Positions 2,020 to 63,790 of a stretch of 64,000 bases of DNA are shown here, one piece after another. The position numbers and the translations under genes were made by a program. Origin of the DNA: Nannobrachium achirus (lineage: Eukaryota; Chordata; Actinopteri; Myctophiformes; Myctophidae); contig OY997647.1 of the NCBI GenBank assembly GCA_963921795.1, forward strand, positions 56,035,668 to 56,099,667, given 5' to 3'. Within the stretch, counting starts at the first letter, position 1; each line of letters opens with the position of its first letter. The notes below the pieces were generated by a model. The model was not told the origin of the DNA. It worked only from the letters and a program-made list of their open reading frames with translations, and searched no databases.

Positions 2020-2524
2020 CATACATGGGCAACTGGCGGCCCGGGGGCCACATGCGGCCCCCACCTTCACTTAATGCGGCCCACAGGTTAATACCAGAAT
2101 ACTGAATATATTATTGATTTCAGCTGTTACATTTCCAAAGATGCTTTAATTCCATCAGTCTATATTAGTAGCTTAATGACTAGTATAGTAGTATTAAAAT
2201 GTATTTTTTATGTCCAATGTATTTGTATTTAGGTTCATAAAGAACTAAAAAACTAAATGAGTTTGAAATTAAATCAAAATGTTACATTTCAGGATTCCAA
2301 TTAAGAAATAACAAAAAATAATTCAGGATTCCAATTCAAAAGAAGCAAAAATAGCCGATCTACAAGCTCAAAACGCCGTTTTGAGCTTGTAGATCTGCTA
2401 TTTTTGCTTCTATTGTATGCGATACTAGAATGACAAAGTAGGACGTAGCAATATGCATTGTGGCCCTCTGGAGTGAAGGTGGAAATATAGTGGCCCTTGC
2501 CATCATCAAAGTTGCCCACCCCTG
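2020..2524. mobile_element. hAT-type MITE with internal GATCTACAAGC hairpin
   Basis: The right end reads AGTTGCCCACCCCTG and the left end CATACATGGGCAACT, an eroded inverted copy. The 8-bp flanks CTGTAGGG (2012-2019 and 2525-2532) are identical, the target-site duplication expected for hAT transposons. The inside is non-coding and includes GCGGCCC-rich ends and a near-perfect hairpin at 2342-2410. Non-autonomous: no transposase frame. Confidence 0.85.
2342..2410. repeat. Shared hairpin module, copy 1
   Basis: Two 33-bp arms separated by 3 bp, differing at one arm position (GCCGATC left, GATCTGC right). Compared with other copies, the stretch next to the loop is CTCAAAAC/GTTTTGAG instead of CTCACAAC/GTTGTGAG, changed on both arms. 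Confidence 0.9.
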
Positions 2525-2634
2525 CTGTAGGGCATGCACATCCATACCACAGTTCATTGTGTATGGTAACTAATACTATTACTACTACTGTTTTGACCAT
2601 AATTTCCCCCTGAAAATCACAGATATAAAAAGCT

Positions 2635-2860
2635 AGATACCTCCTCCGCTGCAGTTCATTGCCGCGACTGGTAAAAGGGGACTGGCAAGCTTCCGGAATT
2701 CTGAAGGATGGATGCTCGGTAGGCCAATTGGATGCGGTACTCCTTCTTTCCAACTGCAGGGGGCAGAGTCATATACTCTATGGGCAGAGTACTTTCCACA
2801 GTTCCGCACTTCTTGCCAGTCCTCTTTTACCAACGCCCCAGAGCTGAGGAGGCGTCTACC
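2635..2860. repeat. Foldback (inverted-repeat) element
   Basis: Left-arm CTCCTCCGCT plus GGTAAAAGGGGACTGGCAAG is mirrored by right-arm CTTGCCAGTCCTCTTTTACC plus AGCTGAGGAGG. The arms are about 60-70 bp and imperfect. Non-coding; short frames on both strands here are shadows of the palindrome. Confidence 0.65.
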
Positions 2861-3302: not shown

Positions 3303-12981
<9,679 letters not shown>

Positions 12982-13940: not shown

Positions 13941-16900
13941 TCATGAGTCTTCTTTCTCTTGATACCTGCAATGTGAAAGACAGTCAATTATATTGTTATT
14001 ATATATTGCTAAATGTTGTACAATCATAAACACATGTCCTCCATCATTCTTTTGTCCGATTGGTTTTGTTTCCCTATTTTTACTTTGCTATTTGTTTTGA
14101 GGTGCCATGTCTTTATAATCCACTTCCTTTTTTAATCTCAGGTTTTCATTTAATCCGTTTTTTAATGACTATCAAGAAGTCTTCAATGTACCTGTACTCC
14201 CTTTCTTTTAAAAAGACTAGTTAGAAACCAGACATCAGACTAATTCGCCTACTATTATTATAACCATGGATTATGTTCGGTTTAAGATCTGTAAGCAATT
14301 GTAATGATGTGTAATATAGTATGAATAGACTTTTTGTTTACCACCCACCGCGTTATAGTATAGCTTTGGTTAAGTATCAACTGCTTTTCATTTCCATCAC
14401 CAGGGTTCCCACACATTTTTACCAATTAATTTCCAAAACTTTTCCAGAATATTTAACCCAATTTCCAGAACTATATAACAATAATTCAGCTCAATAACAG
14501 GTCGATTACTCCTATGCGCAATGCACAAAGACAGGTAGTGTATGCCAGTGGTTCTCAACCTTTTCAGGCCGTGACCCCCGAAATAATCATGTTTTAACTG
14601 GGGACCCCGGCACCTTGACGAGCACTATGAGTTGAGGAATTTTGTATAACACGGTTCTATTGTGAAAATAGCAGATCGAGGCGTTGTGAGCATGTAGATC
14701 GGCTATTTTCACAATTTCTGCCTCATATATTTGACAATTTGGCCAAGGTTTAATTTGTCATTTCAGAGGTATTAACAAAATCAATAACCAAAGACAATGC
14801 ATAGATATTTTCAGGACCTTCCAGGACCCTTGATCAATTCCAAAACTTTTCCAGTACTGGAAAAATATTTTTCTAATTTCAAAATATTTCCAGGAATTTC
14901 ATGACCGTGGGAACCCTGCATCACTCATGCACACAGTAACACATGTTGACCCAGTCATTACCTGCAGTGTATGCAAGTGAAGAAGACAGTCTGCCCTTCA
15001 TCTGCAGATCTCATTTGCCTTGTATGGTAAACCATTCCTTCTTTATTGCAGCGAGAGCAGCGTCTGTCAATCTAAGATAAGAGAAGCCTTAATTGATCAC
15101 TGAGGAAAATGTGGGAGTTTCACTAACGAGAAACTGATACAGCCCGAGAGAAAACTTGAAAAACATGTCAGCAAAGCAGACAATTCAATTAACAGCGATA
15201 ATGAAAGCAAATAAAATCTCAGATGCCGTCTCTGGCAGCGAACAATCAATACAAAATATATATTTTATCATACAGCACAGCAGAACATAAACAGATCATC
15301 CACATTAACAATCAATCGTACCACTGGTCCTTTGAGTTCTGAATTCTCCTCTTCCACCAACACAGAGGACTGTTCTAGGCGGTTGAAGACGATTGTAGAG
15401 GTGATTTCTTGACGTGTGAATTCTGTAAATGAATCATTGATTTATTAGTATAATAATTTGTCCAAAGCAGTAAAAAAAAACAACAACTTTGAAATCCATA
15501 AGATTGATGTCCTTCCCAGGATTCTAAACCAGGCCCACTTGGGCAGAAATTATGTGCTTTGAGCTTCAGGCAATAAATACCAGTGTACTACCCAATTCTA
15601 GTGTTCCTACCCAAACACAGTCAATCTTAAACCACTACAGATTTACTAGATATATACTGTTTTTTCTTTTTAAAAAAAGAGAGAAAAGACTGCAGTTTTA
15701 ATATGCAGCACGTAACTTATCACTTTACAGATCACGCTGTTTTGTTTCAGTTTTTGCAAAATACCTGCATTGCAGTCACTCCACATTTTGCGCCGCAGTC
15801 TGAAAACGCACATCTTCAATAATCTACCTTCTCATTCCTTGTAAGACTTAGTAACTTGTTATAATATGCAGATGAATTACTATGAACAACATATTCTTTA
15901 TAATCATGTGTTGTTAAGTGGGACCTGTTCCTTAACTCTAAATATTTATAAATCATTCTTGTGAAGAGGTATTGTGTTTATGTATCTGTTGCTGGAAGCT
16001 CTTTGATGGGACACTGGAATTATGAGTCCTATTTTAAACATTTAAATATTTTACCGTATCCAAACAAGGACGTGTTTGGATACGGAGCGTCGGCAGGATA
16101 GCGCCTCACCCCACAGAGGATAGGGTTAGGGTTAGGTTTGGTTGTCGAAAAGATGACATGTAGAAACAGCGACACTTTTAATATGGTATTAAGCAATGTT
16201 TGTAGGAGTCAGCTGAATGAGGTAAGTAATGGGGTGATGGAGCACGCACATCCAAGAATTGCAACGGGTGCTGGATCCAAAGTAACACATGTCACATGTG
16301 GAGGAGAGAAAAGTCCACACACACAGTAGAACTAGATAAAGAAATGGGCTCGATAAAAGCCCCAGCTCAATAAGCAGGATCGATAAGGTTCTCATTATCA
16401 ATACAAATGAACGAGCTCCATCCCAACATGTAACTGCTCTATAGATCTGTGGAGCCATGCTGACATCCAATTTAACTTTTATCCATTCTTTAGGCCTCCA
16501 TATCAGGAGGATATGGTACTGAATAGGTCTGCTAAATTTAAATATTCCAAGGCATACATGTATCTAGGGCTCGCCCGTTTCAGTGAATGATATCCTGGCA
16601 TTAAAGGAGGAACATAGAACTATTATTCGTTGTGTCTGACATGACATATTTAGGATGGTTGGTTGCAGGAAAAGGGATTAATCAAGTGTGTATATAAGCC
16701 AGGGGTGGGCAGCATTAATTTCCAGAGGGCCATACGGACCCCGACAAAGTGAGTGAAGGGCCACACATTGTACAATTTAATTGTGTTCTGTTGTGTTCTG
16801 TTCAAACTGTATGGATTTGGTAGACATGCCAAACTACTTTACAATGAGGTCCTTTCACAACAAGACAGCTGTATCACTCTGGTGTACTCTGGCCTACAAT

Positions 16901-21097: not shown

Positions 21098-33758
<12,661 letters not shown>

Positions 33759-35301: not shown

Positions 35302-35915
35302 TTGAAAAATAACAGATATACAAGCTCACAGCGCGGTGCCGCGAGCTTGTAGATCTGCTATTTTTGAAAAATCGTGAAAATTAGAATTTTGACCCGATTC
35401 TATAAGTGTCTTTTGAATCCTTCAAAAAAAATTGAAAAACCTATGTTTCTATGTCAGCAATCTGGCTCGCCATCGTCAAGTTAGTTAGACTGAGTTACTA
35501 GGGCCCAAGGTGGAGGGGCCTTAAATTATTTCATACTTTGTGAAAATGTGTGCAAATCTTTGAATATTATGTATTTTTAAGCAAACATTTGTAACTCAAA
35601 TTTTGCTTCTGGGGGGTCCCTGCCTGGAAGTAAATATTTTGAGATGGGGGTCTGTGGCCAAATACATGTAATCTTGGGGGTCCTTCACATGGAAAAAGTT
35701 TGAGCACCACTGACATAGAAACAGGTTTTTCAAAAAAACCTTCTAAGACTTTCACGATTTAAAAAAAATGGCAGATCTACAAGCTCGCAGCCCGGCACTC
35801 GGTGCTGCGCTGTGAGCTTGTATATCTGCTATTTTTCAATAGCTAAAGCACAAAATAACGCAGTGAATCCTTGTACCCAGGGCCCAGAATGTGGTGTGAC
35901 ACCCCTGAGTAACAC
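35302..35915. mobile_element. Rearranged CAGGGGTGTC-family hAT element with two hairpins (copies 14, 15)
   Basis: The right end GTGTGACACCCCTG (to about 35908) and most of the interior match the intact element at 56896-57492 in inverted or shuffled order, including ACTAGGGCCCAAGGTGGAGG. Hairpins lie at 35304-35367 and 35763-35836; both have GCAGATC/GATCTGC-type arms and a GCGCGGTGCC or CGGCACTCGG apex. The left terminus was not found. Confidence 0.65.
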
Positions 35916-37570: not shown

Positions 37571-40500
37571 TCAGCTCCAGCTGACGTCGTACTGTGTCCA
37601 CCCCTCTGGTGGGGCAAAAAAGACCCTTCGACCTCGTGACAGGAAACTGACGACGCCCCTGTAGCCTGTACGAGGAACCCCCGATTTCAAGTCATCCATC
37701 ACTCCCAGGTTGCGAGCCAAGACCTTAAAACTGTCCCGGCTGGAATATTGCACCCGGAATGGACCCGCTCCCTTCAAACTGCCCCCTTGTTGTAGATCCT
37801 CAATTTTCACCAGAGGGGCGCTGTAAACCTCCTTAATAAAGTTTTCATCATATTTCTCCTTTATCAAGTAAGACAAATCCTGTTTGGTAAAAGGCACAAA
37901 ATCTGTGTTTAGCTTAATGTAGCGCAAGTACTGGTCAAAGAATTGACCTAAACTGACGCCTTTTCGTCCAAAAGTGATAGTTCTGGAGATCTCCGGTCGG
38001 ATGCAAGATCGACCGTTGCGCTGCACCGGCTGACGCATCCAGTCGTCCCAGAAGGCAGCGGGCCATTTGGGCTCCAATTCGTCCCACATCTCCTTGAGAA
38101 GCATCCATCCCAGACCCGGGAAGAAGTCTGTTCTGTACAAGAGATCAGACCTGCCTGGATCTACCAAGGCGTCTCTGCCATTGTCATTCCAGGCAGACAC
38201 ACACCACAGGCTGGGATCAGAGCGCAAGATAGGGTAGAGGGCTCTGAAATACTCAAAGAAATCAGGTGCCACCTGTGTGTGGGGGGAAAAAAAAGAGATG
38301 TGTCTATGAATCATGTTAAAAAAAGGAGCACGTCACACTCTTAACAGCGAACATTTATCTCTGTCAAACACACAGCCAAGAGATTAGGCCAGTTGTTAAT
38401 CATATAATCAATCACAGACAACCATGAAGCGAAAAACGATTAAGGCGGCTGAACAAATCTACTTCAGGCCTAAGGAATGAAAACTGTTATCTGTTTTTAG
38501 TGAACTTGACCTTTAATTTCGTCAAGGTGAATGGATCAGCCAAAACAAACAGAAAGTGAACAAGAGTCCCACAGTTGTCTGTGATAAAAAACAAACATGT
38601 GAAAACATGTTACGTAAATTTAACCAGAACTGAAAAGTCTCCAATTCTTACAGGAAGGTTGATGAACTAACGGTTTTTGCTGGGATTTTGAGCCTCTATT
38701 TGATAGATACAGCTAAGGGACAGGAAACACAGAAAGAGTAGGGGAGTGACATGAAGAAAATAGTTTTACCGCCTGGGAATCGAACCGGAGACTCACGATC
38801 CATGTGAGATCTGCCCTAACCACTATTAGGTGGCCCAATGAACTAGCTGTTTGACTGTTGGGCAACTTTTATTACAAATCATTTCCTCTTGATTTTTTTT
38901 TTCTTTTTTCCTTACCCAATGTTGACACAGATGGGAATTTTGCTTGCTTTAACGACTTTCAACCTGCTGTCCCTTTGCATTAAAAGGTGAACATTTTCCA
39001 AAAAGATCTACAAACTCACAATGTGTCACAAGCTTGTAGATTAGCTATTTTCAATACAATGTATGACCAAGTACAGGTCTCAAGTATGCAAATTGATTTG
39101 CATAGGCACTTCTGCTGCACCCTTTTTCTGAATAGAGAAAGCTAATTAATTCATTAATCACTTAAATGTGCTCATCTGAAAATGCAAAACTAGCTGTCCA
39201 CTCTGAATTAGAATAAATTATGAATGGTTTACAAGCAATCATTCTCGAAATGCCTAACTTTACAAACACCCCACATATTAGGTTTATGCATGCATGCATG
39301 GTATCAAAAACTCCTCAATGTTCATTGTTCACTACTCAGCCTTAAGAGTACACCCAGAGTTTAACTTAGGGAGCAATGCTTCAAACTGTAACATAATTAC
39401 ACCGTATAAATAGGTTGGTGCTGCAGAACTTTTTTTCTAGATCAAGAAACCATAAAACAAAACTGAGAAAGAAAAATGATTGTGATGTATGCAGCCGGAC
39501 AAACGTGGGAACATTACAAGACCAACTCCGATCATTTATAACCCAAATTTAAAATTGAGCCAGATGTAATTACACCTCTTCCATCAAAGGGCCATTTTAA
39601 ATCTATGGAAAATGCTGAGCAATCACAATGTAGCAGAGTATGTCATTTCTGCCAGCGCTGTAGAGCCTGCTCTGAACTAAGTAGACACAAACTTTGATGA
39701 TTTACATAAGGGAAGGAGTTATTGATACCAGACATAGTAGTAGATGAACCTGGACCAATCAAATGTGTTTCACTGAGCCTGGGGGGGGGGGGGGGGGGGG
39801 ATGAGTGACAGGAAAGGGAGAAAAGAGAGCAGGGGTGGTGACAGGCCAGTACCACAGCACTCACACAAGTTACAGGATGTGCTATCCAGACTTTTGTGTT
39901 TTTTGGACGATATATGATGCTGTTGCTATGGATTAGTAACAGGAACGGCATCATACAGAACTTTAAGGCCCAAACCATGACTGCTTTGACCATTTAAATT
40001 GGGGTTATACATTCGTAAAGAGTTTGATTTGTAGGTGGAGAATGTGCTATCATAATAAATCGATATACTGTATAGCTTGGGTTCGTTTTATTTCAATGTA
40101 AACAACCAATTACAGTATTTTTTTCATTTATCTGTTATAGTATTATTCCCTCCTATCAAGACCTGAGTCAATGATTTACTATCTAGAGAATATGTCACTA
40201 CTATTTTCTATTTTGGTGGTGGGGCTACAATACTCAGAGCTTTTACTGTACCTCCAAGTCATCTTCCACAATGACCACGGTAGAGTGGGAGAAGGTGTTG
40301 AAGACTTGGTTGAGAGCCCAGCGGTAATGTCTGGATATCTTGTAGTAGCCCTGGAACTTCCTGTGCTCCGGCCGCACCCTGATGTCAGACAGGTCTGGTT
40401 GGCGGATGTGGGTCACTTGATCTCCATACGAGCCAATCACACGGGCCGTGTCCGCGTGGCCACAGTCCTGGCTGACTATGATTGGATAGAGTTCAGGGGA

Positions 40501-41121
40501 AGGACGATACTGTATTAATCTATCAAGGCTCCTTTTCACCGTCACTCTGTCACAAGCGATGACCAATATGGGGATGACGACTTGAGGAGTGCCGTCGGTA
40601 ACCTCCGACTTATGGTCCAGAATGGTCTCTTCTTTGAGGTCACTGCCCTCTTTCTTTTCAAATGTTGAGTCTGGGACTGTTGTTGTAGGGACCAGTGTTT
40701 GTTTTACTTCAGTTTGGTCCTTGTTATCTAAATGGTCTTTGGGAGGAGCTGGAGGCTCCAGGGGCTGTTTGACATCCTCTTGTTTCTGCTCCTCCTTCCC
40801 ACCGTCCGTGTCTCTTTTGCCGACGTCTTTCCGTTGTGCCCACAGTGACCTGTGACTTTCAATCTGCTTCAGCAGATTCTTCTGGTTCTCCAGCTCAACT
40901 TCCACCTCCTCCGCCAATCGGATCACCTCCCCTGCCAGGTTGGCCCCGCCCCCTTTTCCTTGGGCCACACCCCACTCTTCTTTCCCCCCTGGTTCGGCTC
41001 CGCCACCTTCTGAATGGCGCCCGATGGGAGGACGCCCCCAAAGATAAAGCAGAAGTAAAGCATTCCAGGCAACAAATAGGAAAGCTCCACACAAGATAAG
41101 AGAACCTTTCTTGCGAACCAT
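37571..41121 (-). CDS. mgat1: Alpha-1,3-mannosyl-glycoprotein 2-beta-N-acetylglucosaminyltransferase (GnT-I), complete, 2 coding exons
   Basis: GnT-I transfers GlcNAc from UDP-GlcNAc to Man5GlcNAc2 in the medial Golgi, the first step toward hybrid and complex N-glycans (family knowledge). Exons are 41121-40252 and 38272-37571, GT-AG, phase 0, 523 residues. The type II membrane layout is clear: a short cytosolic tail MVRKKG, a signal anchor at about residues 7-28 (AFLFVAWNALLLLYLW), then a charged Glu/Lys/Pro-rich stem to about 180. The catalytic domain starts VVIPILVIACDR. The metal/nucleotide motif EDD is at 286-288, and SAWNDNG, RTDFFPGLGW, AFWDDWMR and CIRPEISRT are conserved. The protein ends YDVSWS. 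The stem is about 75 residues longer than in human (445 aa). The coding intron falls right after EDDLE, whereas the mammalian coding region is a single exon. An acceptor at about 41591 upstream of the start indicates 5' UTR exons. Confidence 0.95.
38681..38836 (-). repeat. tRNA-derived SINE in the MGAT1 intron
   Basis: On the minus strand a tRNA-like head contains an A-box-like TAGTGGTTAGGGCAG and a B box GGTTCGATTCC (38776-38786). A tail follows (CTGTCCCTTAGCTGTATC, then CAAATAGAGG) as in fish tRNA-SINEs. The head does not fold into a proper acceptor stem, so it is not a functional tRNA gene. Confidence 0.65.
38995..39053. repeat. Shared hairpin module, copy 16 (short)
   Basis: AAAAGATCTACAAACTCACA and TGTCACAAGCTTGTAGATTA arms followed by GCTATTTTCA, in the MGAT1 coding intron. 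Confidence 0.75.
39781..39800. repeat. Poly(G) tract, 20 bp
   Basis: Uninterrupted G run in the MGAT1 coding intron; C-rich on the transcribed sense strand. Such a run can form a quadruplex on the opposite strand and is prone to length error in assembly. Confidence 0.9.
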
Positions 41122-44775: not shown

Positions 44776-44778
<3 letters not shown>

Positions 44779-50148: not shown

Positions 50149-50191
<43 letters not shown>

Positions 50192-53100
50192 TGGGGGGTT
50201 GAGTACAAGATTGTAAATAAATTGCATTTGTTTAGCGTTTTACCAAAAGTCCTTCATGAAGAATGCCTCGCATTCACACTTCACACACAGGGCAGAGGCA
50301 GCCATGCAAGGCGCCAACCTGCTCGTCAGGAGCAGTCTGGGGACCGGAGTCTTGCTCAAGGACAAGGACACGTTGCAATATGTAGTGCCAGGGGTTGAGA
50401 CAGGAACCTTCCGGTTCCCACTTGACCTCTCATTACCTCCTGAGCCACTTCCACACAGAAAGGCTACTAAACTTTGTGAGAGAAAAACCAAAAAACAAGA
50501 CACGCACGCACGCGCACACACGCACACACGCACACGCACACACACACACACACACATAACCTTTATGCATTTATACTTTGTTGCGTCTCAAAAAACAGCT
50601 GATCTACAAGCTGAAGAGGTTGTAAGTCGGCTATTTTCACCAGCAACAAAGTATACCTATGGCTTTACAAAGCCATGTTCTGCGGCAGCAGTTCCTCTCA
50701 CCAAGTAAACATCGCAGAGATTGTGCACCCAGAAAGAATAGACGGCGGACGTGACTGTATGGAGCTCGTATGCCTCGAAGCCTTGCTCACACTGACGGAC
50801 AGTGCTGTAGAGTCTGGAACACACCCAGCGGTCCATGCTGCTCATAGGAGACGTCTGGAAGCAAGTGAAAGTAAAAAGGCTACAGTAAACACTTTATGTC
50901 TGGCATGCTAAGTGGTCCTCACTGGCAGGTGAATCAGTAGGATACTTTTTACTTTTGAGCCGAACGCGAATGAAAAGAAAAACCTGGAAAAGAAAAACAA
51001 CAGAAACACACAATTGTGTGTGGGGAGGAATTATTTGGCATAATGACATAAATTGGAAAAAAAAGGGGGGGGGGGGGACCTCCATTACCTCTGCCAGCAC
51101 CGTCAGCTCTGTCCCGTTGTTAGCCAACACTCCCAGTGTGAATCTCACTGTCTGCCACATCTTATTGCAGAAGTGCCTGCAGCTCAGCACCTGGGACACA
51201 GACAGACTGATGTCCTCTCCTGGTGATGAGGCAGACAGATAAATGAACCCACCAACAGTTCCACGCATGGTTCACAATCATATGGCAATTGTTCCAAGCA
51301 GATAACATCCCTGATATACTGTATACTGTATATTTGCCGGTGTTATGAAGTTATTTGAAATGAACCAGTAAGACTCCCTAATCGGGAGATAAGCGACCGT
51401 CACGTCGCATACACAAACTTTAGAAGGCAATCGTAGCCAATAAGGAGGGACTATGGGAAATGGGTCAGATCCATGTTGATGACATGACTTTAGAGATACT
51501 GTGTACCACTTTGCGAGATTTTAGGCCAAAATCTGTAGGAGCAGTGTCAAAAAATATGTTTTGCAAAAATCGGCCTGATGGTGGCGCGAGAAGAGGGCCA
51601 TGTGATTGTGGAGGTTGTGATTTGCCATCCAAGGAGTGTGTGTGCAAAGTTTGGCATGGATAGGGGCAATGGTGCCGGAGATAAGAGTAGGGGCAAAAGT
51701 GTGACGTTACGTGACGGACAGCCGGTGTAGCTTTTCATAGTAACTTGCGACCTGACGGTTGCAATTAAATTACATTCTGGCTTAAGGTTAGAGCACGGGT
51801 TCTCACAGTGGGGCCCAGGGACCCCCAGGGGTCCTTGAGAGGTTTCCAGCTAATTTTTTAAGTGTATAGAGGGTATCTGCACATTTCTATAGTGACAATT
51901 TAAGGATTTTTTAAATGCCAATGAAATTACAAATTAAACATTGGCCAAATGGCCAAATTGTCAAATATTAGAAGTAAAAATTGTGAAAATAGACGATCTA
52001 CATGCTCACAACGCCTCGCAACATGCTCACAATAGAACTGTCCTATACAAAATGTAATGCCTCAACTCTTAGTGCTCGTCAGGGTGGGAGGGTCCCCCGT
52101 TAAAATATGATTATTTTGGGGGTCGCGCCCAGAAAAGGTTGAGAACCACTGGGTTAGAGTCACTCACCCTGTGCCTTGTAAGAGCATAGAGCAAAGCGCA
52201 GGGCATCTGTCCCACACTCTGGTATCCCCTTGGGGAAGTCTTTCCTCTGTCAACAGGGAGATGAGGCAGAGAGAGAGATGGGAGTGGATGTAATGAGTAC
52301 ACTCAGTCAGGCAGAACCACCACAAATTACTGATGGGACAGAGAGAGATAGCAGCAGAAAGCAAGGGGCTAACCTGCGCTTCCATGGCAACTGTGGTCTC
52401 CCTTGGGTCAATGTTTCCCTGTCTGACTTTCTCCTGAAGACTCTGGGCCGAGACAGGAAAATAAGCAGACACGTTTTATGAGCAGGTGGTATTTATCTTC
52501 TCCTTGAGCGGGGGGCTGAATCACAGCGGATGAGGGCATCAAACGCAGCGTTTCCCTGAGAGCTTTTCTTGTTAGATTTGCTGTAAAGTTCAAGGCACTG
52601 ATGCATGCTTACCTCCTGCTCTATCCTAGAACAAAGACATTGTCGCTGTCGGGTGGAAACCTTGTATGTCCAAAAACCATTACTTTTCAGGATATGGAGA
52701 AAATAACCGGTGTTCATATGGATCCAATGTAGTTAGCTGCTATTGTTAGGTAACATGTCATTGGGTCGAACACCCTTTGGATCGACCACCAAACTCTAAC
52801 ACAACCCCTAATCCTAACCTCAGTAAAACTATGCCTAACTCTAACCCTAACCCTAAACCTAACCTCAGTAACCGTGACGCGGGTGATTATCTAACCTGCC
52901 GACGCTCGCGGGTGATTATCTATCCTGCTGTTCAACCCAACGGGAGTTCGACCTATTAATACTTTTCATTGGTTAAATATTTATAGAACCCCCAGACAGA
53001 CTTAGCCATTCTCACTTTCAAATTAGTTTTCAAAAACATCTAAAACAGATCTATAAGTTCAAAACACATCACACCACATTTTGAGCTTGAGGATCGGCTA

Positions 53101-56100
53101 TTTTAGCTACCGCGCAACACTCGAAAAAGGTCAATCATTTAAATAAAAAATATTTAAATTCAAAAGTAAAAAGTTGTAATATGGAGATACAAGGTTTCTG
53201 CCCGACAGCAGCGACATGAAGGATAGGACATTGAAGTCTCAAACAATCCTTAGTGTGTGTTCAGCCTGTAGTTCCATACGGCCCTATCTAAGATATGTCA
53301 TTTCTGTTGAGCCAAAGTGTTGTGCAACGAACCATAAATCAGCCTTAACGTGAAGCCACCAGCCAGAACAAGCTGATCAATTCACTGACAGTAGCCTCCT
53401 TCCAGCAGTCCAACAGGATTTAGTGGCTTGGCCCTTCAATGTGATAAATAATAGTGAGTCATAAAAAGGATGAGCCCACAGGCCACGTACCTCCAGAGAG
53501 ACGCCAGAAATGATGTCCAAAGGGTCAATGACATTCCCCAACGACTTGCTCATCTTCCTCCCGTGTTTATCTCTCACCAGGGAGTGGAGGAGCACCTGAG
53601 AAAGATAAAGAGGCCAAGAGAGAGAGAGAGAGACAAACACAGATGACAGGGAAAGTTTACGATTCAGCGTGTGTGACCTGACCATGTCTGTGTTTCATGT
53701 TCTGCTTCAGTGATTTGAATTTGCCATTAAGGCTATGTTCAAAAACAGCCCATTTTTTTTTGACAATCCAGATTGGAATCAGATTGTTTATTCAAGTCTG
53801 TACAGAAAAACTAAAAACAAACAAACTTGATTTTGCTAAACTAATTTTAATCACTTTCTTAGCTTGAAATGCAATTCTGATTTCTAAAGATGTGTCTCAG
53901 TCGGACAATGTAGCCGATTGATACTCCATGCTACGTACAACGTTTAGTAAGCAGATCTACAACCTCACAAAGCTTTGCCACATATTGTGAACTTTTAGAC
54001 ATGCTATTAGCGAGCAATACTGTTATACGACGAGTTGCATTACTCACGCCTATGTCGTAACCACACCAACCAAAGCAAAGAGATCGCCAATATGTCTGAA
54101 TACACAATTCCGAGTTCAGATAACTTGTAAATAACAGTGTGTGCGCAGTCAGTCCTAAAGATGATGTATATGATGAGACAAATGTACCTGTTTAAAGGGC
54201 AACTGGCCAGTCAGCTCTGTGCCCAGCATAACCATCCGCGCCACCCAGAAGAAAATGAGGTCACTTCCCGTCTCCAAAACAGAGTTAGGGTAGTACATCT
54301 GTAGGTCGCTAGTCTATGGGAAATCAAAGTGTAGTTATACAGTGAGCAACATACTCAATGTCAGTCCTTAAGTCAAAGTATAGATCAACGTTTTCAGGCC
54401 AAGGACCCCTTAGTCGAGAGAGAGATGAAGCAGGGACCCCCACAACCTTTTCATAGATTCCATATAGTTTCATCGTTTGACAGCACGATCATCAGTGTAT
54501 TTTGGATTCATGTCAATTTGCGTTTTCAGATATTTAACCACTTGAACTGTCAATACTTAATAAACGTGACCTTTCACCCCGTAATTAGTCGTCTCTTTTC
54601 CCCCTCTACACCAAAGCTCTTTGCCAAAAATAGCTGATCTACAAGCTCACAACGCCTCGTAGATCTGCTATTTTTGGCTAAGGTTCTCAGAATATTAACA
54701 CAGTTAAAGGATATGGTTCAAGTTGTTAATATAAAAAAGGGTAAAATGTTTCTATCACACAAAGATTTGGAGGACCACCTATAGTAACTCTGAGGACCCC
54801 CTAGGGGTCCTGGACCCCTTGTTGAAGACCCCTGGTATAGATACTCCTGGTCAAATATTACTCAACTGAAAGTTGCTCTGTCAAGTTTGTACTTGAATTA
54901 AAGTACTGGAGAAGGGGAAAAATGTATTCAAAAGTACAAATTGCAAAGTGAAATTTATTTTGAATAATATTCAATAAAAATAAAAATTGCAGATCTACAA
55001 TAGATCTGTTATTTTCCACCACATCTGAAATAGGTGGAGTAATTTCAAAAGTACAATGTTTGTCTTTGAAATGTAGCAGAGTTAGGTATCCAAAAACTCA
55101 AGTAAAGTACACAATCTACTTTGTTACTGTCCACCACAGACGAAGAGACACTCTACAGTATATCTGCGAGGGCTCTTCAGCTGATGAAATGACAACCTGG
55201 AGAAAGGCCATTACCTGCTGTGGCCAGCCCAGCATGGCAAAAGGGAAAAGGCCGGATGAGAACCACGTGTCCAACACATCTGAGTCTGGGAGGAGACATA
55301 ACATAACGAGATGCAACATAATGTCAATGTTCATTTGTGTAATCAATTTTGTACATTTATTTTATCCATCCGTTTTCTTCCTGTTTCTTACTGTAAATGC
55401 CTGTTTTATCTTTTGGTAACAGTTAACAAACAGCAAAGCAAATTGTATGAAAACCTTACAAAAATACATGTGTCAGATCATATGAACTGGGAGCTTCTCC
55501 CCACCTCAGCAATCCATCTCCCAGAGGTTTTCAACTGGTTGTTCATTTTGTTTTGTTTCATTTTGGAGAAACGTTGGCATTTGTGTGATATGAGAACAGT
55601 GAAATTAAAAACATTATCATCTGTAATTGGAGGAGGTTTGTGTTTCAATAACGAAAGTACTTCAAGCTTACAAGAAGAAGATAAGCTCGATGTCCACAGA
55701 CTCTTTCAAGAGACGACTGTATGAAACAGTCCCTTGTAGTTCTGGATGATGACAGAAAAAGCTAAATGTAATGTACTTTTAGTAAGGATGTATCTCTGTG
55801 AAAGTGGTATTGCCACAATGGAATACCTGAAGAATATTAGTATTACATAACAGTATTATGTACAGGACAAGGTTGGAGACAGAAAATGACATGAGACTGT
55901 CCCTGACCACTACATAATAGCCAAGAAAAGACAAATATGGACCACCTGTAATCATGCAATGGACCATTTGTGGGCCATGGAAAACGGGGAAATCTCGCTC
56001 TTTCGATGGGTCATTCTTTCAACAATGAGAGTCGGCAGGTTAGCTACTCTCCCGCGTCACGGTTACTGTGCTTAGGGTTAGGGTTTGGGTTAGGTTTAGT

Positions 56101-59100
56101 CATAGAGGTTAACATTCACCCACGTTGGCAGGTTAGCTTTTCACCAGGTCAACATTCACCCGTGTCGAAAGAATGAACCGTCGAACAGATGCTATGTCGC
56201 AATATCGACACGCTCCCATGGACAACTACTTGAGAAGCAGCGTACTAAATGACCTGGTGACCTACGATGAGTCAGTTACTGAGAAGTCTCAGGTCAAGAA
56301 GTTTCACACAGAAAAGGGAGTTAGAATCTCAAGGAGGGAAAGTGTCATCATTATTAGGAAATGTGGCCTTTTAATGGCATGTGTTTGCTCACTCATAAAT
56401 GTTACAAATCAGTGGTTTGTTGTCAACCTTTTCTGAGCTTTTGGGGCACTAGCATGTTTAGAGCAATCTTCAATGGCCACCTCAACCCACCTTTAACTAA
56501 TCTTAGCCTACATATCCCCACCCAATACAACACTGGTCCCCATGTTGAATCTTTAATCAGGGTGGTGGTCCCTGGGATAGACTCCCGCACTCTGGCTGAT
56601 ACCGACAATAAGCCTCTATGACCTACTTACTTAATCACTCACACTCACCTATATAAGACATTATTAAACATAATCAAGGGTAAAATAAGCAATTGGTGGT
56701 GACAGGTTCAGATGAGGAACCCACCCTGAGTCAAGGTCACAGAGTCGGCCGGAACTCCATATTTGACAGCAGCTCTCTGTCTGGCCTCCTCCTGGCTCCG
56801 GCCCCACACCCAGCGCTCCTACCAGGGACAACACAACACAGACACAGTGTGGGTTATCAGTTATCACACCCACCGCTCCAAGCAGGGCCAACACACAGGG
56901 GTGTCGCACCAAATTCTGGGCCCTGGGTACAAGGATTCACTGCGGGCCCCCCATGAATGTTCTTCATTGGGGGAAGGGGTTTAACCCATTATTTACACTG
57001 GGAACGCATTATTTTGTGCTTTAACTATTGGAAAATAGCAGATCTACAAGCTCACAGCGTGGCACCGAGTGCCGCTCTGCAAGCTTGTAAATCTGCTATT
57101 TTTCTTCTTTGAATATTTCAAATCCTTCTATGGTTTTTTGAAAAACCTATGTTTGTGGTGCTCAAACCTTTTCATGTGAAGGACCTCCAAAATGATAAGT
57201 ATTTGGCCACGGACCCCCATCTCAAAACATTTAGTTCCAGGGACCCCCCAGAAGCAGAATTTGAGTTACAAACGTTCGCTTAAAAAAACACATATATTCA
57301 AAGATTTGCACACATTTTCACGACTTTTCAAAAAATAGCAGATCTACAAGCTCGCAGCGCGGCACTCGGTGCCGCAATGTGAGCTTGTATATCTGCTATT
57401 TTTCAATAGCTAAAGTATAATTAAGGCCCCTCCACCTTGGGCCCTAGTAACTCAGTCCCACTCCCCCCACCCCCTTGTGAGTGACGCCCCTGCCAACACA
57501 AAACAGACGCAGTGTGGGTTATCACACCCGGCGCTGCTACCAGGGACAACACTAAACAGACACAATGTGGGTTATCACACCCGCTCCGCTCCTGCCAGGG
57601 AGAACACACAACAGAGACCGTGTGTGGGTTATGCCATTATAACAACAGTGGAAGACTGAACCAGCTCTTCAGAGAACGTGTTCTCTTTCAAGACAGAGGC
57701 TTTTCAATACAGAAATGAACAGTAACATAATATCAAAGCTCTTTTGTAGTTTTATATTATGTGTTATCCTTTACCTTAGGGTGACCATATTTTCAGCCGC
57801 TCAAACTGGTACGCAAACCACTGTTGCTTAAAACCGGGACCCTCAAAGCAATGCGCACGTTACCGCGCACGCCCATTCTCTAACGTTTGTGCACGCGCAC
57901 ACATGCACCACAGGGTTGCATGCAGGCAGTGAGTGATTGACAAAAAGCCTCAGTGTTGAATTCAGACACGCAATGAATTTGTTCATGTTTTCTGATTGGT
58001 TAGGTGAGCATGTTTTCGTGAGAAGAACATGATAAATGCCTATGCAACCACTAAAAACAGCTACTATTATTTTATTTCTGGCGAAAACCGGGACAATTTT
58101 GCAGTGAATGTTGAAAACCGGGACATATTAGTGTTTTAGAGATATTTGTCGGGACACTGGGACACGCAGCTTGAAAACGGGACTGTCCCGGGTAAAACGG
58201 GACTGTCCTGGGTAAACCGGGACGTCTGGTCACCCTACTTTACCTAGATATATTTTTGGGTGACCTAAGGGTGAATATTATTTTGTAGCTACTTGTCTGT
58301 CTGTCTATTACAACGCAACGATAATTGGTTCTAACAAGTCACAATCCTCATTCTGTAGGTGTGAATGTATTTGGCAAAATAAAGAATTCCGGATTCTATC
58401 CTTCAGGGCATTTTTATTCAAGAGAACCGTCAACAAATGGTGTCTGTGTTTTGAAAGTTTACAAACCTAACTGTCCATTTGTGGATCGATTAAAGTACAT
58501 TCTTGATACACACAAGCCTGACCTCTTGGCTGTTAGGAGAGTTGGGAAGTGTCACTTGATAAGCAGGAATCTGATGGCCCCACCAAAGCTGCCTGGAAAT
58601 GCACCAATCGCTGAGAGGGGGGAGAACAAACAGAGGTGCATTGTTGACATCCCATAAGTCATAACAACGAGTCTTTTATCTCATCTTGACACCAGGCAAA
58701 TAAAAGAAAACAGAGACACCGATAACGATAGATGGCTGCTGTCCCAAATCTCAGAGCCTGTCAGTGTCACTCAGTACTGATGTCAGTCAAGCTAGGATGA
58801 GAACACAAGACATCACTGTTTGCGACCGAAGGTCGCAGTTTACCATGAGAAATGTCATAGCTTGTCCGCGTGTAGACGTGTGTGTACACATTTTTACAGT
58901 CTATCACAGGTGATATCACAGGTGGCATCACCGATGTGAAAGTCCATATATGGGTTTTCCCCAGAATCCCCTTTTATGCCCATATATGAAGATCCCTGAT
59001 GTCATCGATCACTGGCCAGATGTCCAAGACATGGCCCATATCTGTGTGGCTGATTCAGATAGGAATCTCCATGTATGGGCAATAAAATATTAAATATATT

Positions 59101-62100
59101 GAATGTTGTGATGTCATGGGAACCACTCTAACAGAATCCATTTTATAGATAACATTTCTCGAAGCTGTATTTCAATTGTACACAACCTTTGCTGCCTAAC
59201 TCTGTCTCTCATTACTGCCAGAAGTTATGGCTTTGGGGGGTCTTTATCATGATAACGTTTGGAAACCGCAGTCACAGAGGATCCAGTGTATTTCTTCAAG
59301 AATCGTGTGAAGCATAACAGGGTACCTGATGTTGGACAGCCAGTTCTTCCAGGTTTTAGTGTAGAAGTGGGGGATGATCTCCAACTGGCCGTCCTCCACT
59401 GCCTGAGGCAGAGAAAGTGAGAGTTGAGCATGGTATTCGAGTCCACAATCCACATCATTCACAACTTCAATGGCTACATAGATAAAGGCTGACCTAGAAA
59501 GCACAACGTCACAATGATCAACTCCAATTACCTGGATGGCCCGTTTAGCCATTTGATCACAGCGCACAAACCACTGCTTCTTCAACAGAGGCTCAATGAT
59601 GTCCCCCGAACGACTGAAAGGATGGATGGATGGATGGATGGATGGAAGGGAGGGAGGAAGGGAAAGTAGGTTATTAGAAAATAAAAGACAAAGAGCTTTA
59701 TGGGGATATAGTGGGTGTGGCCACTATTGTCAAGTATCAGGAAGGGACAGAGGAGCCAAATACTGTATAACAAAGAACATGACAATCGTCAGCTGATATT
59801 GGGAACACGAAGACCAGGTCTATTGTCAACTGAAATTCGCAACATGATCACATTTCTTGTGACATCATTAGAAAGGTCACTTGAGAGCTTCCTCAGTGAA
59901 TAATGGCATACATGAAATAATACAACATTTCTCTTTTCCATTCACTGTTTGTCTTTTTGAATTTCCCTTCAGGGGAAGGTGTAGTCACCTTAGCTGGAGT
60001 CCATGGACCAGCAATGGTGACTACATTACCCATGATGCAACTTGGCACCACCGTGCAGCTGGAAGCCCCTTTCCCAATAATGAGGTGTAAAGAAGCTACA
60101 AATTCCCAGCAGCACAGAAGATGTATACTGTATACATATAATCTCCACAGTACCCCCTTCTGTTCCTGAGTTCCATGGTGTTAAAAAAGAAAGAAAGGTG
60201 TTTCTGATAAACATTGTCACACCGAAGTTGACCTTTCGGATATAATTAGCTTATGAATTCTTTAGTTATGGCCTAAAACGTATTTTGTGAGATCACCTTT
60301 GACCACCAAAATCAAATCAAATCATTCAGGAGTCCAGCTGGACATTTGTGCCAGTTGTAATGAAATTCCCTTCAGGCGGCCGTGAGGTTATACAGTGACC
60401 TTGACCTTTCAATAATTTACAGCTTGATAAATGTACATTGAAAGGCTCTTTTAAAAGATGGGCTGCCTTTCTTTGGCTACAGTATGCAGAGAGAATGACC
60501 TTCCTGGTTGTCCCCAAATAGAATTCAATTATATTTACTTATTTGTATTTATTTATTTTTATTCTGACCTGAAGGTTGAGGCTATTGTGTCAAATATAAA
60601 CCAAGCAGAATGTTTGTGTTCCTTGTCTCGACATGTTGTTTTTTCTACTGCACAATTATAATATACTGTATGACAGTGTCACTGCCAGTGTGCTTAAATG
60701 CCCCTTAACTGGAAAAGCATTAACAGGCCGAATACTGGCCAATGGCTGAGAGAAATGTCATCTTCTCTAACAACGGAAAGGATCACTTGTACTCAGGCAC
60801 GTGCACACATAGACATCAAATGGGGCTTTAGCCCTTTTATCTGCCTGTAAAAAGTGCCATCTCCAGACAATGAATGCAGTTTTTACTGTGGTGAAAGAAA
60901 TGCAAATGTCCTCTTTCCATGCCATAAGGCAGCATTCATGAGAATTACCTTGTCCAAACTGACCTGAACTTGATGCAGCATCTTATTTGCCCTCTCTGTA
61001 TATAAATCCATGCCGTTAGGTCACATCTCCGGTATTCACTCGCTTATGCTAAGTTCAGTGTGGTATCAAGCACCGAAAATAGCCGACCTCCAAGCTTAGC
61101 GCGATGCGTTGTGAGCTTGGAGGTCTGCTATTTCCGATATTATAATAATCTCAGCCCCTGCCTCTCTAACATTCTCTGCACGTCCCTGCTTGTACTGTCA
61201 GGGGAAAATAAGATATCTTTAAAGAGTTTGTCGACCATTTGTGGAATATGTTGAGCAAAGTGATGTGGGTGATAATACGGGTATATATTGGTCACAGGCC
61301 GGTGTCGGTATTTGTATTTTTGAGTGTTGTTGGAGAGCTTTTGCTTGCTTTTTTAATTTGAATTAATACACAAAATGCATTGAAAAATTACTAGCAATTT
61401 TATATTAGCACATGTACATGTAAGTGGAATGACACTTTGCCATACCTGCAGACAGGCAAAGACATGGCATGATCCTGCTTCCCCCTGAATAACTTTTTCT
61501 CTACAAGGGCATTCAGGACTCGTTCTCTGGCATCAAAGCGCTTCAACCCCTGAAAAAAAGAGAACACATTTATGAATAAGCCATTGGATATATTGGACAA
61601 CATTGGTAAATTAAACCCTATTAAGCCATCAGTCGTTCTTAACGCCCTTCAAGTCAAGCCAAATTTAGTCATAAAGCACATTTAAAAACATCTGTCACTG
61701 ACCAAAGTGCTGCACAAAATCACAGAATACAGAAGTCAATGACAAACAAGGACTTACTGCTCAAGTACTGCAATAGTAAATTCCCAAATCCTTATGCTGA
61801 CCAAACACGTCTAAATGTATTATAACAGTATACTGCCAAGAGTGCAAAACCAGCTGCAAGCAATAACTATGTAATGTTATGTTATGTAAGAATATATAAG
61901 TAAGAGCTTAAAAAAGAGGTGGCTCTGTATTGTGAAATGAGTGCACATAGTACTGATATAGTCAATTAAAAAGATAATTGCACTAATGGTTTGTCTTTGT
62001 CACAAAATCCCACGGCACACCACCTGGGAACCACTGCACTACATAACTGTAATGAATCACAGATCAATCATTTTCTTAAGTAAACGTCTGTCAGATCAGA

Positions 62101-63790
62101 GACAATGGTACATTTCTCTGGGATTGCAGCATGCACCTCCAACCACTGGCCACAAAGAGGGGTCATTGTCCCATCTCCTCCAATCACAGTAAGACGTGGT
62201 AGCGAGTGCCTCTGGGAGAGCAGGAAGTCAGTGTGGTCATGAGCTGGAGTAACCTTTACTGCCCCTGTGACCATACACACACAGAGCCAAAATAAGAAAA
62301 GGACACAGGCTAAACAGCTAGGTCTATCTCTCAAGATATACATGTTTTTAAACCATGTAAAAAGAACAATAACATATTTATTACAAATGATAATCAGCTC
62401 ATGGGTATGCAGTGATATTATGTTAAAATATCTCCTTTAGTTATATTACCCGTGCCAAGCTCCATGTTCACCACTGGATCAGTGACAATAGGTATGAGTC
62501 TGTCGATGAAAGGGTGTCTACACTGCTTGCCATGAATATCCTAGAAGAAAATGATGACAGGAGAAAATAAGTAATAGGGCATATGATTCTAGACACAACA
62601 TATGAGCTTGTTCTTCTCAGTGAGTAAAAAAACAAACAATCATGAATGCAAGCGATGTTGTCATTTTGTACGAGCCTGGTATCGAGGATCATCTGGATGC
62701 ACAGCGATGGCCACGTCTCCCAGCATGGTCTCAGGACGGGTGGTTGACACGGCCACCTCTCCACCTGACAACAAACACCACGTTAACACCTTCACAAACA
62801 GGGAAACTACGCAGAATTCAGAAGAGAATATCCATATTTCTTTTAAATTTGTTATGTCTGTTTACAATTTAGATATTTGGTAGATGTTTTTTAAATTACA
62901 TGTATGGTCATTAAGGATAGGCAAGTGCTACGGTAAGTGCTATGGGGCCGTGACATCATTTTGTAGTCAGACCTCCAAGCAGATTTATTATCAATATCTG
63001 TCCCTCGCTATTTCAACAGATCCGAGACAAAAATAACGACTAAAGTATAATTCTACCACTTTCTTTTCAACAACAAAGAGAAGAAAAATTTGTAAATAGT
63101 AAAAATTGTAAAAAGATTCACGGGCGCTGGGGGCAGTTGGCCCCAAAAGTTCTCCTCTGCCTACAAAATGTCAGACTTAACAGCCCCATAATGGGCCAAG
63201 GTGGAGTCTGAAGATGTGAGTCTTCAAACCACGGAGGAACCTAGGGAGTGAGTCTGCAGTTCTAAGTGCAACAGAGAGTCTATTCCACAGTTTGGGGGCC
63301 AGGAGGGCGAAGAGTCTAGGACGAGTGGATCGTTGTCCTGGGATTTTGACTAATTTCTTTTCTTCATAAATTCATGCCTTAGAGAAGACAGCCAATCTAC
63401 AGCATTGCTATGTGCAAGCTCGTAGATCTACTATTTTTGCCTATTTTCAAAAACAAAAACCTTTAAAGTCAAAGTGGTTAATTCTCTCTGTGGGTTTTAT
63501 GAATATTTAATCAATGAAAAGTATTAATAAGATCTTGTGACTAAATAACAACTACAATGGATGCTTTGGAACACAGGTTCTTTTTTTTCTTTCCATGAAA
63601 AGTAAGGGCTTTGTAAATACTCAGTGTCCACCTGATGGCAACTAATAGATCACATCATTTAGGCCAGTTAGGATGACTCACCACCGCCCTCTATAGGATA
63701 CACAAAGGTCACCATAGATCCAAATTCCACCTTCTTCTCATAACCAGGAACAGACAGCATAGTCCTCCCAGACAGCTCCTTTGACTCAAC
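47151..63790 (-). CDS. vars2: Mitochondrial valyl-tRNA synthetase VARS2, 3' 21 exons (N-terminus beyond the window)
   Basis: VARS2 charges mitochondrial tRNA-Val (family knowledge). Exons in gene order are 63790-63682, 62764-62676, 62540-62450, 62264-62137, 61549-61446, 59613-59532, 59402-59326, 58610-58523, 56818-56725, 55285-55215, 54313-54188, 53595-53491, 52442-52374, 52246-52168, 51219-51089, 50854-50702, 50135-49878, 49651-49540, 49124-48934, 47612-47463 and 47225-47151. Total 2382 nt, 793 codons plus stop, phase unbroken. The editing (CP1) domain covers the first exons ([28 protein letters not shown]). The catalytic core follows ([36 protein letters not shown]). The class I signature KMSKS is at 53556-53542. 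Then come the anticodon-binding domain ([28 protein letters not shown]) and a C-terminal coiled coil. HIGH lies outside. Residues such as [16 protein letters not shown] and [13 protein letters not shown] favour VARS2 over cytosolic VARS1, as does synteny with GTF2H4. The intron after 62676 starts GC, not GT. Confidence 0.93.
47650..47870. repeat. Possible LINE 3' fragment (TTTATTG type)
   Basis: CAATTCAATTCAATGGGCTT, TATTGTGAGAGAAACATGAG and ACAGTACAATACAATCAATC are typical of truncated retroposon tails in fish. A similar GTACTTTATTGTCAC block lies at about 28055. Family not resolved. Confidence 0.4.
48200..48270. repeat. Dispersed retroposon fragment
   Basis: GTGTCCCTGGACCCTGAGC followed by CACTTAACCCCTAACCGCTCC is a phrase common in vertebrate SINE-like repeats. 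A related stretch is at about 24040-24110 and another at 50330-50440. Assignment is from memory. Confidence 0.4.
50152..50189. repeat. (GA)n microsatellite
   Basis: About 18 GA units in a VARS2 intron, starting 17 bp from the exon edge at 50135. In gene orientation it is a (TC)n tract just upstream of the 3' splice site and could act as an extended polypyrimidine tract. Confidence 0.95.
50501..50556. repeat. Compound (ACGC)n(AC)n microsatellite
   Basis: Alternating purine-pyrimidine tract in a VARS2 intron, Z-DNA-prone. Confidence 0.9.
50590..50639. repeat. Shared hairpin module, copy 17 (reduced)
   Basis: AAAAACAGCTGATCTACAAG and TTGTAAGTCGGCTATTTTCA arms, directly beside the 50501-50556 microsatellite and 63 bp from the VARS2 exon end at 50702. 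Confidence 0.75.
51364..51763. repeat. GCGACCGTCACGTCGCA-ended dispersed element, short copy
   Basis: Same family as 19861-20745: shared 29-bp lead with CTCCCTAATCGGGAG, ends GCGACCGTCACGTCGCA (51393-51409) and TGCGACCTGACGGTTGCA (51746-51763). It retains a single internal unit and no GACG tract. Confidence 0.7.
51794..52151. mobile_element. hAT-type MITE, CAGTGGTTCTCAACC family, with damaged hairpin
   Basis: The right end GGTTGAGAACCACTG is intact and the left end CACGGGTTCTCACAG eroded. The 8-bp duplication GGTTAGAG is perfect (51786-51793, 52152-52159). The hairpin region (51980-52035) keeps the left arm but its right arm is rearranged (ACATGCTCACAATAG). It ends 16 bp from a VARS2 exon (52168), inside the donor-proximal intron. 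Confidence 0.88.
52632..53216. mobile_element. TGTCGGG-type MITE with a nested TTAGGG-bearing element and hairpin copy 19
   Basis: The ends ATTGTCGCTGTCGGGTGGAA and TTTCTGCCCGACAGCAGCGA are inverted copies. A second element lies inside at about 52756-52957, with ends TTGGGTCGAACA and TGTTCAACCCAACG and telomere-like CTAACCCTAACCCTAAACC. The hairpin is at 53040-53107 (CTAAAACAGATCTATAAG ... GAGGATCGGCTATTTTAG). Non-coding. Confidence 0.8.
53949..54008. repeat. Shared hairpin module, copy 20 (eroded)
   Basis: AGCAGATCTACAACCTCACA and TTGTGAACTTTTAGACATGC arms in a VARS2 intron. Confidence 0.7.
54386..54834. mobile_element. hAT-type MITE, CAGGGGTCTTCAA family, copy 3
   Basis: Right end TTGAAGACCCCTG; left end shortened to CAACGTTTTCAGGCC. 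The 8-bp duplication GTATAGAT is perfect (54378-54385, 54835-54842). Hairpin copy 21 lies at 54623-54677, with part of its right arm deleted. Confidence 0.9.
54845..55115. repeat. AGTAC-type fish repeat with hairpin remnant (copy 22)
   Basis: TTGTACTTGAATTAAAGTAC, GAAATGTAGCAGAGTTAGGT and CTCAAGTAAAGTAC mark a repeat related to 18440-18590. A reduced hairpin TTGCAGATCTACAATAGATC, then TGTTATTTT, lies at 54982-55016. So the module occurs in yet another repeat family. Confidence 0.5.
56005..56181. repeat. TTAGGG-bearing short element, another copy
   Basis: Inverted ends GGTCATTCTTTCAACA and GTGTCGAAAGAATGAACC enclose GGCAGGTTAGC, CGCGTCACGGTTACTG and TTAGGGTTAGGGTTTGGG. Same family as 6868-7290 and 52756-52957; a fragment is at 16085-16150. 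Confidence 0.6.
56804..57632. repeat. Minisatellite of about 53-60 bp units overlapping a VARS2 3' splice site, split by a hAT element
   Basis: Four units, each beginning CACACCC-GCGCT-like sequence, then CCAGGGACAACACAACACAG, then GTGTGGGTTAT. Unit 1 starts inside the VARS2 exon 56725-56818 and runs across its acceptor. Unit 2 (from about 56865) is interrupted by the hAT at 56896-57492. Units 3 and 4 lie at about 57525-57577 and 57578-57632. In gene orientation units 3 and 4 contain acceptor-like CCCTGGTAG/CAGCG and CCCTGGCAG/GAGCG. Confidence 0.8.
56896..57492. mobile_element. hAT-type element, CAGGGGTGTC ends, with two hairpins
   Basis: Inverted ends CAGGGGTGTC and GACGCCCCTG are flanked by a perfect 8-bp duplication CCAACACA (56888-56895, 57493-57500). 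Hairpin copies 23 (57030-57104) and 24 (57327-57405) flank an internal segment that itself resembles a hAT end (GGTGCTCAAACC ... GGACCCCCCAGAAGC). The element may therefore be a composite. 597 bp, non-coding. A rearranged relative is at 35302-35915. Confidence 0.92.
57777..58237. mobile_element. hAT-type MITE, TAGGGTGACCA ends
   Basis: Ends TAGGGTGACCAT and TGGTCACCCTA, with a perfect 8-bp duplication CTTTACCT (57769-57776, 58238-58245). The interior is rich in AACCGGGAC repeats. No shared hairpin. Confidence 0.92.
59620..59662. repeat. (ATGG)n / GGAGG-rich microsatellite
   Basis: Tetranucleotide repeat beginning 7 bp upstream of the VARS2 exon 59613-59532 in gene orientation. The transcript therefore reads a (CCAT)n/(CCTC)n pyrimidine-rich run directly before the 3' splice site. 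Confidence 0.9.
61073..61136. repeat. Shared hairpin module, copy 25, with paired substitutions
   Basis: Left CCGAAAATAGCCGACCTCCA and right TGGAGGTCTGCTATTTCCG. Relative to other copies, GATCTACAAGC is GACCTCCAAGC on the left and the right arm carries the matching GCTTGGAGGTC. Two independent base changes are present on both arms. Confidence 0.9.
63120..63345. repeat. Dispersed repeat (TTCCACAGTTTGGGGGCCAG)
   Basis: The stretch GAGTCTATTCCACAG ... GGGCGAAGAGTCTAGGACG is a phrase common in repeated DNA of fish (from memory). Not coding; family unresolved. Confidence 0.4.
63385..63439. repeat. Shared hairpin module, copy 26 (eroded)
   Basis: ACAGCCAATCTACAG and AAGCTCGTAGATCTACTATT arms around CATTGCTATGTGC. 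Confidence 0.65.

Follow-up and report, generated by a model that had tools for sequence, protein, structure and literature searches.

Families of miniature inverted-repeat transposable elements (MITEs) are usually taken to be private derivatives, each of one transposon. Among retrotransposons, the short interspersed elements (SINEs) have central domains, V, Deu and CORE, that are common to families unrelated elsewhere. The 64,000-nucleotide stretch of Nannobrachium achirus considered here (contig OY997647.1, from 56,035,668 to 56,099,667; hereafter the window) resembles the SINE case, in that a single module is common to families whose other parts are unrelated. It differs in that the module is a hairpin, one ancestral quasi-palindrome that is 71 bp at full length (34+3+34), and in that its carriers resemble DNA transposons.

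There are partial precedents among other described systems. MER6 is presented as a mammalian Mariner-type MITE that contains the V domain of a SINE (PMC6887750), so that there, as here, a conserved domain lies inside a MITE following insertion of another element, and the composite was then amplified. That account has one domain in one MITE lineage, with hundreds to about 2,900 alignments per genome, whereas the palindrome of N. achirus is found in many families and, by extrapolation, ~600,000 copies. Made1 is given as an 80-bp palindromic MITE with 37-bp inverted repeats around 6 bp (PMC1784062), a nearly perfect palindrome of similar size, but Made1 is the whole element, while the palindrome here is part of larger elements and showed no target duplication of its own. 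Pack-TIR elements, as set out in the FoSTeST model, are animal DNA transposons, mostly hAT and TcMariner, that gain foreign internal sequence; what they capture is described as mostly single-copy gene or genome fragments (PMC8277862), in contrast to one repeat across many high-copy families. The REP sequences of bacteria are likewise abundant short palindromes, but they are prokaryotic and are linked with tyrosine transposases of their own (PMC2817692). A literature search over titles and the beginnings of abstracts (Repbase not covered) named no shared MITE hairpin of such a kind, and six 14-base words of the core brought up just one paper in the open-access literature, an unrelated one.

Simple repeats aside, the most frequent 14-mers of the window are words of the hairpin arm. 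The arm reads GTGAGCTTGTAGATC[TG]GCTATTTT, and the majority of arms pair into hairpins. Scanning the window for it gives 44 matches of at least 17/24, as against 0-2 in each of five Markov-1 sequences as long as the window. A covariance model trained on 15 window hairpins, run over the window with filters off and a cut-off of E < 0.01, gives 24 loci (the 15 training copies included); the locus at 25003 is a hairpin unrelated to the module, and that at 54983 is doubtful. The remaining 22, together with three one-armed or half-collapsed copies from the arm scan (7132, 31755 and 51986), make 25 firm copies in 64 kb. A preliminary description of the window had spoken of about 25 repeats inside elements with different ends, and it was right on both counts: the 21 positions it listed all hold the module, 20 of them as hairpins and one (31757) as a single split arm, and the difference in ends is real on inspection. 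Six hairpins folded as DNA have z values of -7.1 to -15.3, and the module is a near-perfect palindrome of the kind seen in Made1-like MITEs. Its commonest full length is 71 bp, found in 44 of 101 sampled hairpins, and shorter copies lack part of the middle. In the arm alignment the border of the core is sharp; the module alignment took 15 of the 22 whole hairpins.

The module is not peculiar to this stretch. Within the assembly of 1,658,514,493 bp, the 16-mer GATCTACAAGCTCACA occurs with at most one mismatch at 274,643 forward and 273,404 reverse positions, and the reversed pattern at 4 and 4. Both 12-bp arm cores, exact and 10 to 40 bp apart, are found at 46,803 places in the genome (control 0). 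One 10-kb stretch was drawn at random from each of contigs 1 to 20, at positions between 1 and 28 Mb, and these twenty stretches contain 67 hairpins in 183,965 non-N bp, which extrapolates to a genome total of 604,000 (bootstrap 451,000-757,000) or, at a mean of 64 bp, ~2.3% of the genome. These 67 belong to a set of 101 hairpins taken from all the sequence compared. In viral contigs the arm patterns occur at 0, 1 and 2 places, and their printed surroundings (L002, L003, L004) contain just a lone arm that forms no hairpin; the sole match of a bacterial search (L001) is likewise a single arm. Two tandem arrays have a module arm in their unit, at 3064-3615 of L033 (12.4 x 45 bp) and 2327-2497 of L034 (4.1 x 43 bp).

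How alike are the carriers once the module is set aside? Among 13 carrier copies (E4b, E3b, E3d and the E8 copy at 35 kb left out), a cut-off of E 0.05 leaves 71 of the 73 between-family pairs matching when the module is present and, as counted from the match lists, only 7 of 73 once it is masked. That whole carriers simply share a common descent is therefore rejected, and the view that one module is common to families otherwise hardly matching is upheld. The seven matches are E6-E8, E2-E8 and weak end matches among E5, E6 and E7. The first two come from a common interior adjoining the hairpin, called E9, and because they have it in common E2, E6 and E8/E9 do not have to represent separate gains of the hairpin. 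E2 is a mosaic, with an E9/E6-like interior joined to different ends; the earlier suggestion that carriers had their ends swapped thus fits E2, whose interior is like that of E9/E6 and whose ends are not. In E1, E3c, E4, E7 and E10 the stem has the same C.T mismatch (A.G from the other strand). An imperfection shared in a palindrome points to a single ancestor, and hence to one origin for the hairpins of different families.

It is family E3 that shows how the module can pass from one family to another. E3 measures ~210-260 bp, has ends TCGTCRYTGTCGGG and carries the hairpin in its middle, and nine aligned copies all have the hairpin or its collapsed remains. By reading of alignments, TA adjoins 25 of 41 E3 end matches; other letters stand beside the other 16, including both ends of the window copy 52640-53214. 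E3 was at first placed among the hAT-type elements (as the TGTCGGG family), wrongly, since it is flanked by TA; it appears to be a TA-target MITE, a candidate for the Tc1/mariner type. Its host is a MITE with ends CAGGGGT..CACAAAC, of hAT type by an 8-bp duplication in L031. Three copies of this host, in the window (8013-8271), L017 and L033, contain E3 at one TA site (site 1). Removal of E3 and one TA from site 1 leaves an exact match to the uninterrupted copy in L031 and a match with one mismatch to L023, so that the empty site, with its one TA, is exact. L031 in turn has E3 at a different TA site (site 2), whose uninterrupted form is seen at 7964-7990 of the window and, by eye, in L017 and L033. 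Because the three copies filled at site 1 have different outer flanks, the composite of E3 and host has itself spread. The module thus moves into MITEs, as had been supposed: the hairpin was transferred into a hAT-type MITE by insertion of E3.

I propose that many families of non-autonomous DNA transposons have the 71-bp quasi-palindrome at the core of their interior, spread both by its carriers and by insertion between families, and I regard this account as on balance probable. Within a family the hairpin would multiply by riding inside its carrier. Between families a hairpin-bearing element would insert into another MITE and the composite would then spread, as E3 has done. Loss of the outer parts of E3 would leave the hairpin in a hAT-type element: L030 keeps the left half of E3 and the hairpin and has lost the right end, an apparent intermediate, and in the CAGTGGTTCCCAAA family (L015, L025, L026) outer arms of E3 type still accompany the hairpin or what is left of it. 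Both may be erosion stages of an inserted E3, presumably in that order of events. Other families could have acquired the hairpin by similar insertion and erosion, or by template-switch capture during repair. Changes common to both arms and the pairing of outer flanks, with counts given below, also speak for this account; what keeps the arms alike may be template switching inside the hairpin or else selection for pairing. Copies are often seen to collapse by deletion at short internal repeats.

Several observations weigh against this proposal. The commonest carrier in the random sample is not E3 (17 of 67 hairpins) but E8 (25), the others being E7 (4), E5 (3), E4 (2) and the CAGTGGTTCCCAAA family (2), and 14 have no assignment. 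E3-like flanks at E 0.01 accompany just 22 of the 101 hairpins, the other 79 being without them, so the E3 route covers a minority, and E1, E5, E7 and E8 show nothing E3-like beyond the palindrome. Site 2 is not clean, for in the filled copy of L031 six additional bases stand next to the right TA; the argument for transfer rests on site 1, and this imperfection leaves the odds as they were. When all arms are taken, the distance between families is 0.213, as against 0.137 within (column 15 is out of all distances). Inside a family the module and the remainder of the element change at similar rates (32/320 against 194/1726 sites, summed over six overlapping and not all independent pairs, with the module slower in five and faster in one). 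The pairing of flanks discussed below is weak when judged from the window only (p 0.02). Two further stretches have 4 hairpins in 20 kb, a lower density than in the main sample (0.36 per kb).

Could the carriers instead descend from one old transposon lineage, in which selection has preserved the hairpin (for example as a binding site, or because it helps transposition), with ends and interiors having diverged beyond recognition? I think this unlikely, but it has something to say for it. The masked ends of E5, E6 and E7 are still weakly similar, E2 and E6 have the interior of E8/E9, and stem pairing is kept while stem sequence changes. Moreover, hAT-type MITEs found with no regard to the hairpin often hold the module. 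A scan of the window for 8-bp duplications and inverted ends gave 12 candidates, as against 1, 0, 3 and 0 in four Markov sequences, of which nine are counted as hAT-type; excluded are a chance pair (21708), a palindromic element of another kind (27290) and a candidate whose bounds are arms of the module (57088). A hairpin lies within six of the nine (p 0.004 by shifting hairpins round the window), in a scan that overlooks some true carriers such as E7a and E8, which another scan found. In the random sample a hairpin is enclosed by 9 of 21 elements found through their ends and duplications; three of the 21 are artefacts, delimited by arms of the module.

By duplications and ends, E1, E2, E4, E5, E6, E7, E8 and E10 are read as hAT-type MITEs. 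The 8-bp duplication is 8/8 in E1, E5b, E7a, E7b, E8 and E10, 7/8 in E2 and E6, and 8/8 for E4 in the sampled stretches L015 and L026; E5a, E4b and the 35-kb copy of E8 are incomplete. hAT ends begin with CA or TA, and the carriers have short terminal inverted repeats with such a start, which was a precondition in two of the element scans (the hairpin-blind scan of the window and that of the random sample) and not in the third. Against a single lineage, then, stands E3, flanked by TA where other delimited carriers have 8-bp duplications. Among delimited carriers, moreover, arms differ by 0.166 between families and 0.125 within (a count that drops the short arm of E7c and copies lacking a secure carrier), and flanks hardly match. 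The similar rates of module and remainder also speak against selection on the hairpin, although selection on active copies only is still compatible with them.

A second alternative is that several families captured the hairpin independently, through template switching, at hairpins by preference, in the course of replication or gap repair. The flanks beyond the core differ by family yet tend to pair: among 33 non-redundant flank types of the 101 hairpins, outer positions 1-6 pair at 0.43 as against 0.28 with swapped partners, and 0 of 5,000 swaps reach 0.43. Such palindromic extensions, differing by family and with no duplication at the border, are what capture would leave, and the mosaic E2 agrees with it, as does the published capture model for animals, described mostly for hAT and TcMariner elements (PMC8277862). 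Within the core, the same change is found in both arms 9 times as against 2.6 in permutations (17 hairpins) and 66 times as against 17.4 (101 hairpins), and in 15 aligned modules 21 cells are altered on both sides, where shuffling gives 8.5 and none of 500 shuffles attains 21, all of these counts being inflated by relatedness of copies. Template switching is reported to create and repair such stems (PMC8794818) and to homogenise arms (PMC8604942). The likeness of the arms may come from template switching or from selection on pairing, which look alike. Capture as the general route is nonetheless decidedly unlikely: no donor-acceptor junction with microhomology was resolved, and in the sole transfer that was fully resolved E3 inserted in the ordinary way at a TA.

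Least probable is that the palindrome is itself mobile, as a minimal MITE in the manner of Made1 or as a unit of single-stranded DNA, and inserts into elements on its own. The preferred length of 71 bp and the sharp border of the core favor it, and so do the 14 of 67 random-sample hairpins whose flanks match none of the compared carriers. But 20 hairpins, compared at offsets -8 to 12 and lengths 2-6 and 8, have no consistent direct repeat at their borders (best mean match of 8 letters 0.43, with no formal control), so a bare palindrome with its own target duplication is rejected, and the outer flanks tend to be palindromic and not directly repeated. The joined flanks of the 101 sampled hairpins have no empty site within the sample. 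Flanks of E7 lie 0 to 30 bp apart at 127 genome places (control 0), and among the 100 of these that were listed none has a gap of <5 bases; most retain pieces of the module, often joined at a repeated GATC or at TA. Since these hairpin-less copies look like collapsed palindromes, the hairpin was probably in E7 before E7 spread. Of the mobile palindrome conjectured in the preliminary description, what survives is movement into MITEs inside the carrier E3; self-insertion finds no support, for want of consistent border duplications and of the clean empty sites that were looked for in the sample and in E7.

Two other candidates can be dismissed in a sentence: a known RNA gene, since an Rfam search of the window at the gathering score gives 0 matches and E4 alone has a weak one to MIR841 (33.5 bits against a gathering score of 200), and an end hairpin of the Helitron type, since from what is known of Helitrons the module, being internal to its elements, does not fit.

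The features of the window are collected in Table 1.

Table 1. Module copies and their carriers in the window (strand is given for none of the features)
Feature	Position	Remarks
E1, hAT-type MITE, ends CATACATGGGCAAC / CAGGGGTGGGCAAC	2020..2524	duplication CTGTAGGG 8/8; hairpin 2348-2404
E2, hAT-type, ends TAGGGTGGCCA	6925..7250	duplication 7/8; collapsed hairpin, arm 7132-7155; interior like E9/E6
E3a, TA-flanked MITE	8013..8271	full 71-bp hairpin 8094-8164; host a hAT-type MITE starting ~7907
E4, ends TAGGGCTGTCACGAT	11394..11780	full 71-bp hairpin 11607-11677; just 5 shared flanking bases in the window copy
E5a, ends CAGTGGTTCTCAACC	14546..14782	single end present; hairpin 14665-14709, much of one arm gone
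Hairpin without secure carrier	21704..21761	
Hairpin of E3 copy E3b, interrupted by E7a	21813..21879	right end of E3b near 22399-22431
E7a, hAT-type, ends CAGGGGTCTTCAAC	21929..22373	duplication ATTTAAAA 8/8; hairpin 22082-22142
Hairpin without secure carrier	23227..23281	
E4b, half an E4 element	24222..24485	hairpin 24222-24271
E6, hAT-type, ends CAGTGGTTCCCAAA	24678..24955	duplication 7/8; hairpin 24806-24876
Hairpin split in its loop by E7b, no secure carrier	31755..32261	arms 31755-31778 and 32238-32261
E7b	31788..32234	duplication GTTTAGAG 8/8; hairpin 32027-32079; sits in the loop of another module copy
Rearranged E8/E9 copy	35306..35907	hairpins 35306-35364 and 35765-35835; E8 end 35889-35907
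Hairpin without secure carrier	38996..39051	
Hairpin, carrier tentative	50592..50637	inside an 80-bp palindromic stretch, 50574-50653, with TA at both sides
E5b, hAT-type	51794..52151	duplication GGTTAGAG 8/8; half-collapsed module, arm 51986-52009
E3c, ends by eye	52640..53214	inner insertion ~52735-52953; hairpin 53039-53104
Hairpin without secure carrier	53945..54010	
E7c, left end damaged	54392..54834	duplication GTATAGAT by eye; hairpin 54627-54674
E8, hAT-type, ends CAGGGGTGTCGCAC / CAGGGGCGTCACTC	56896..57492	duplication CCAACACA 8/8; hairpins 57032-57102 and 57332-57402 flank the E9 interior
E10, hAT-type, ends CAGGCACGTGCACA	60794..61188	duplication CTTGTACT 8/8; hairpin 61076-61134
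E3d, diverged E3 copy	63385..63642	hairpin 63385-63437; flank matches E3c

Duplications proposed around the hairpins at 38996 and 31755 are judged to be chance: the repeats are weak, and the second pair would enclose an exon-like stretch (by eye). Adjoining E6, and having a target duplication in common with it, is a module-less hAT-type MITE (24964-25134) with a near-perfect hairpin of its own (25002-25027 / 25041-25066), unrelated to the module. Other inverted repeats are found at 27159-27849, with 257-bp arms of 98.8% identity (perhaps a young palindromic element), at 1036-1226, where they are nested and include a second hairpin at 1122-1187, and at 48477-48612, with 45-bp arms and outside the module family. 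Reading frames of a GNT-I (MGAT1-type) gene lie on the minus strand at 37571-41163, and pieces like DDX39B and VARS were recognised by eye only.

A further idea goes beyond the proposed spread by carriers and insertion, and I offer it tentatively, as a possibility more doubtful than that proposal: the palindrome may be a second-order selfish module that boosts any MITE acquiring it and so crosses superfamilies, a counterpart among DNA transposons of the central domains of SINEs. Here one hairpin is shared by families that differ both in their ends and in their target rules, and by extrapolation it takes up ~2% of a vertebrate genome. It offers a natural test of whether an internal hairpin aids the amplification of MITEs, and tens of thousands of copies in which template switching and the collapse of palindromes may be measured.

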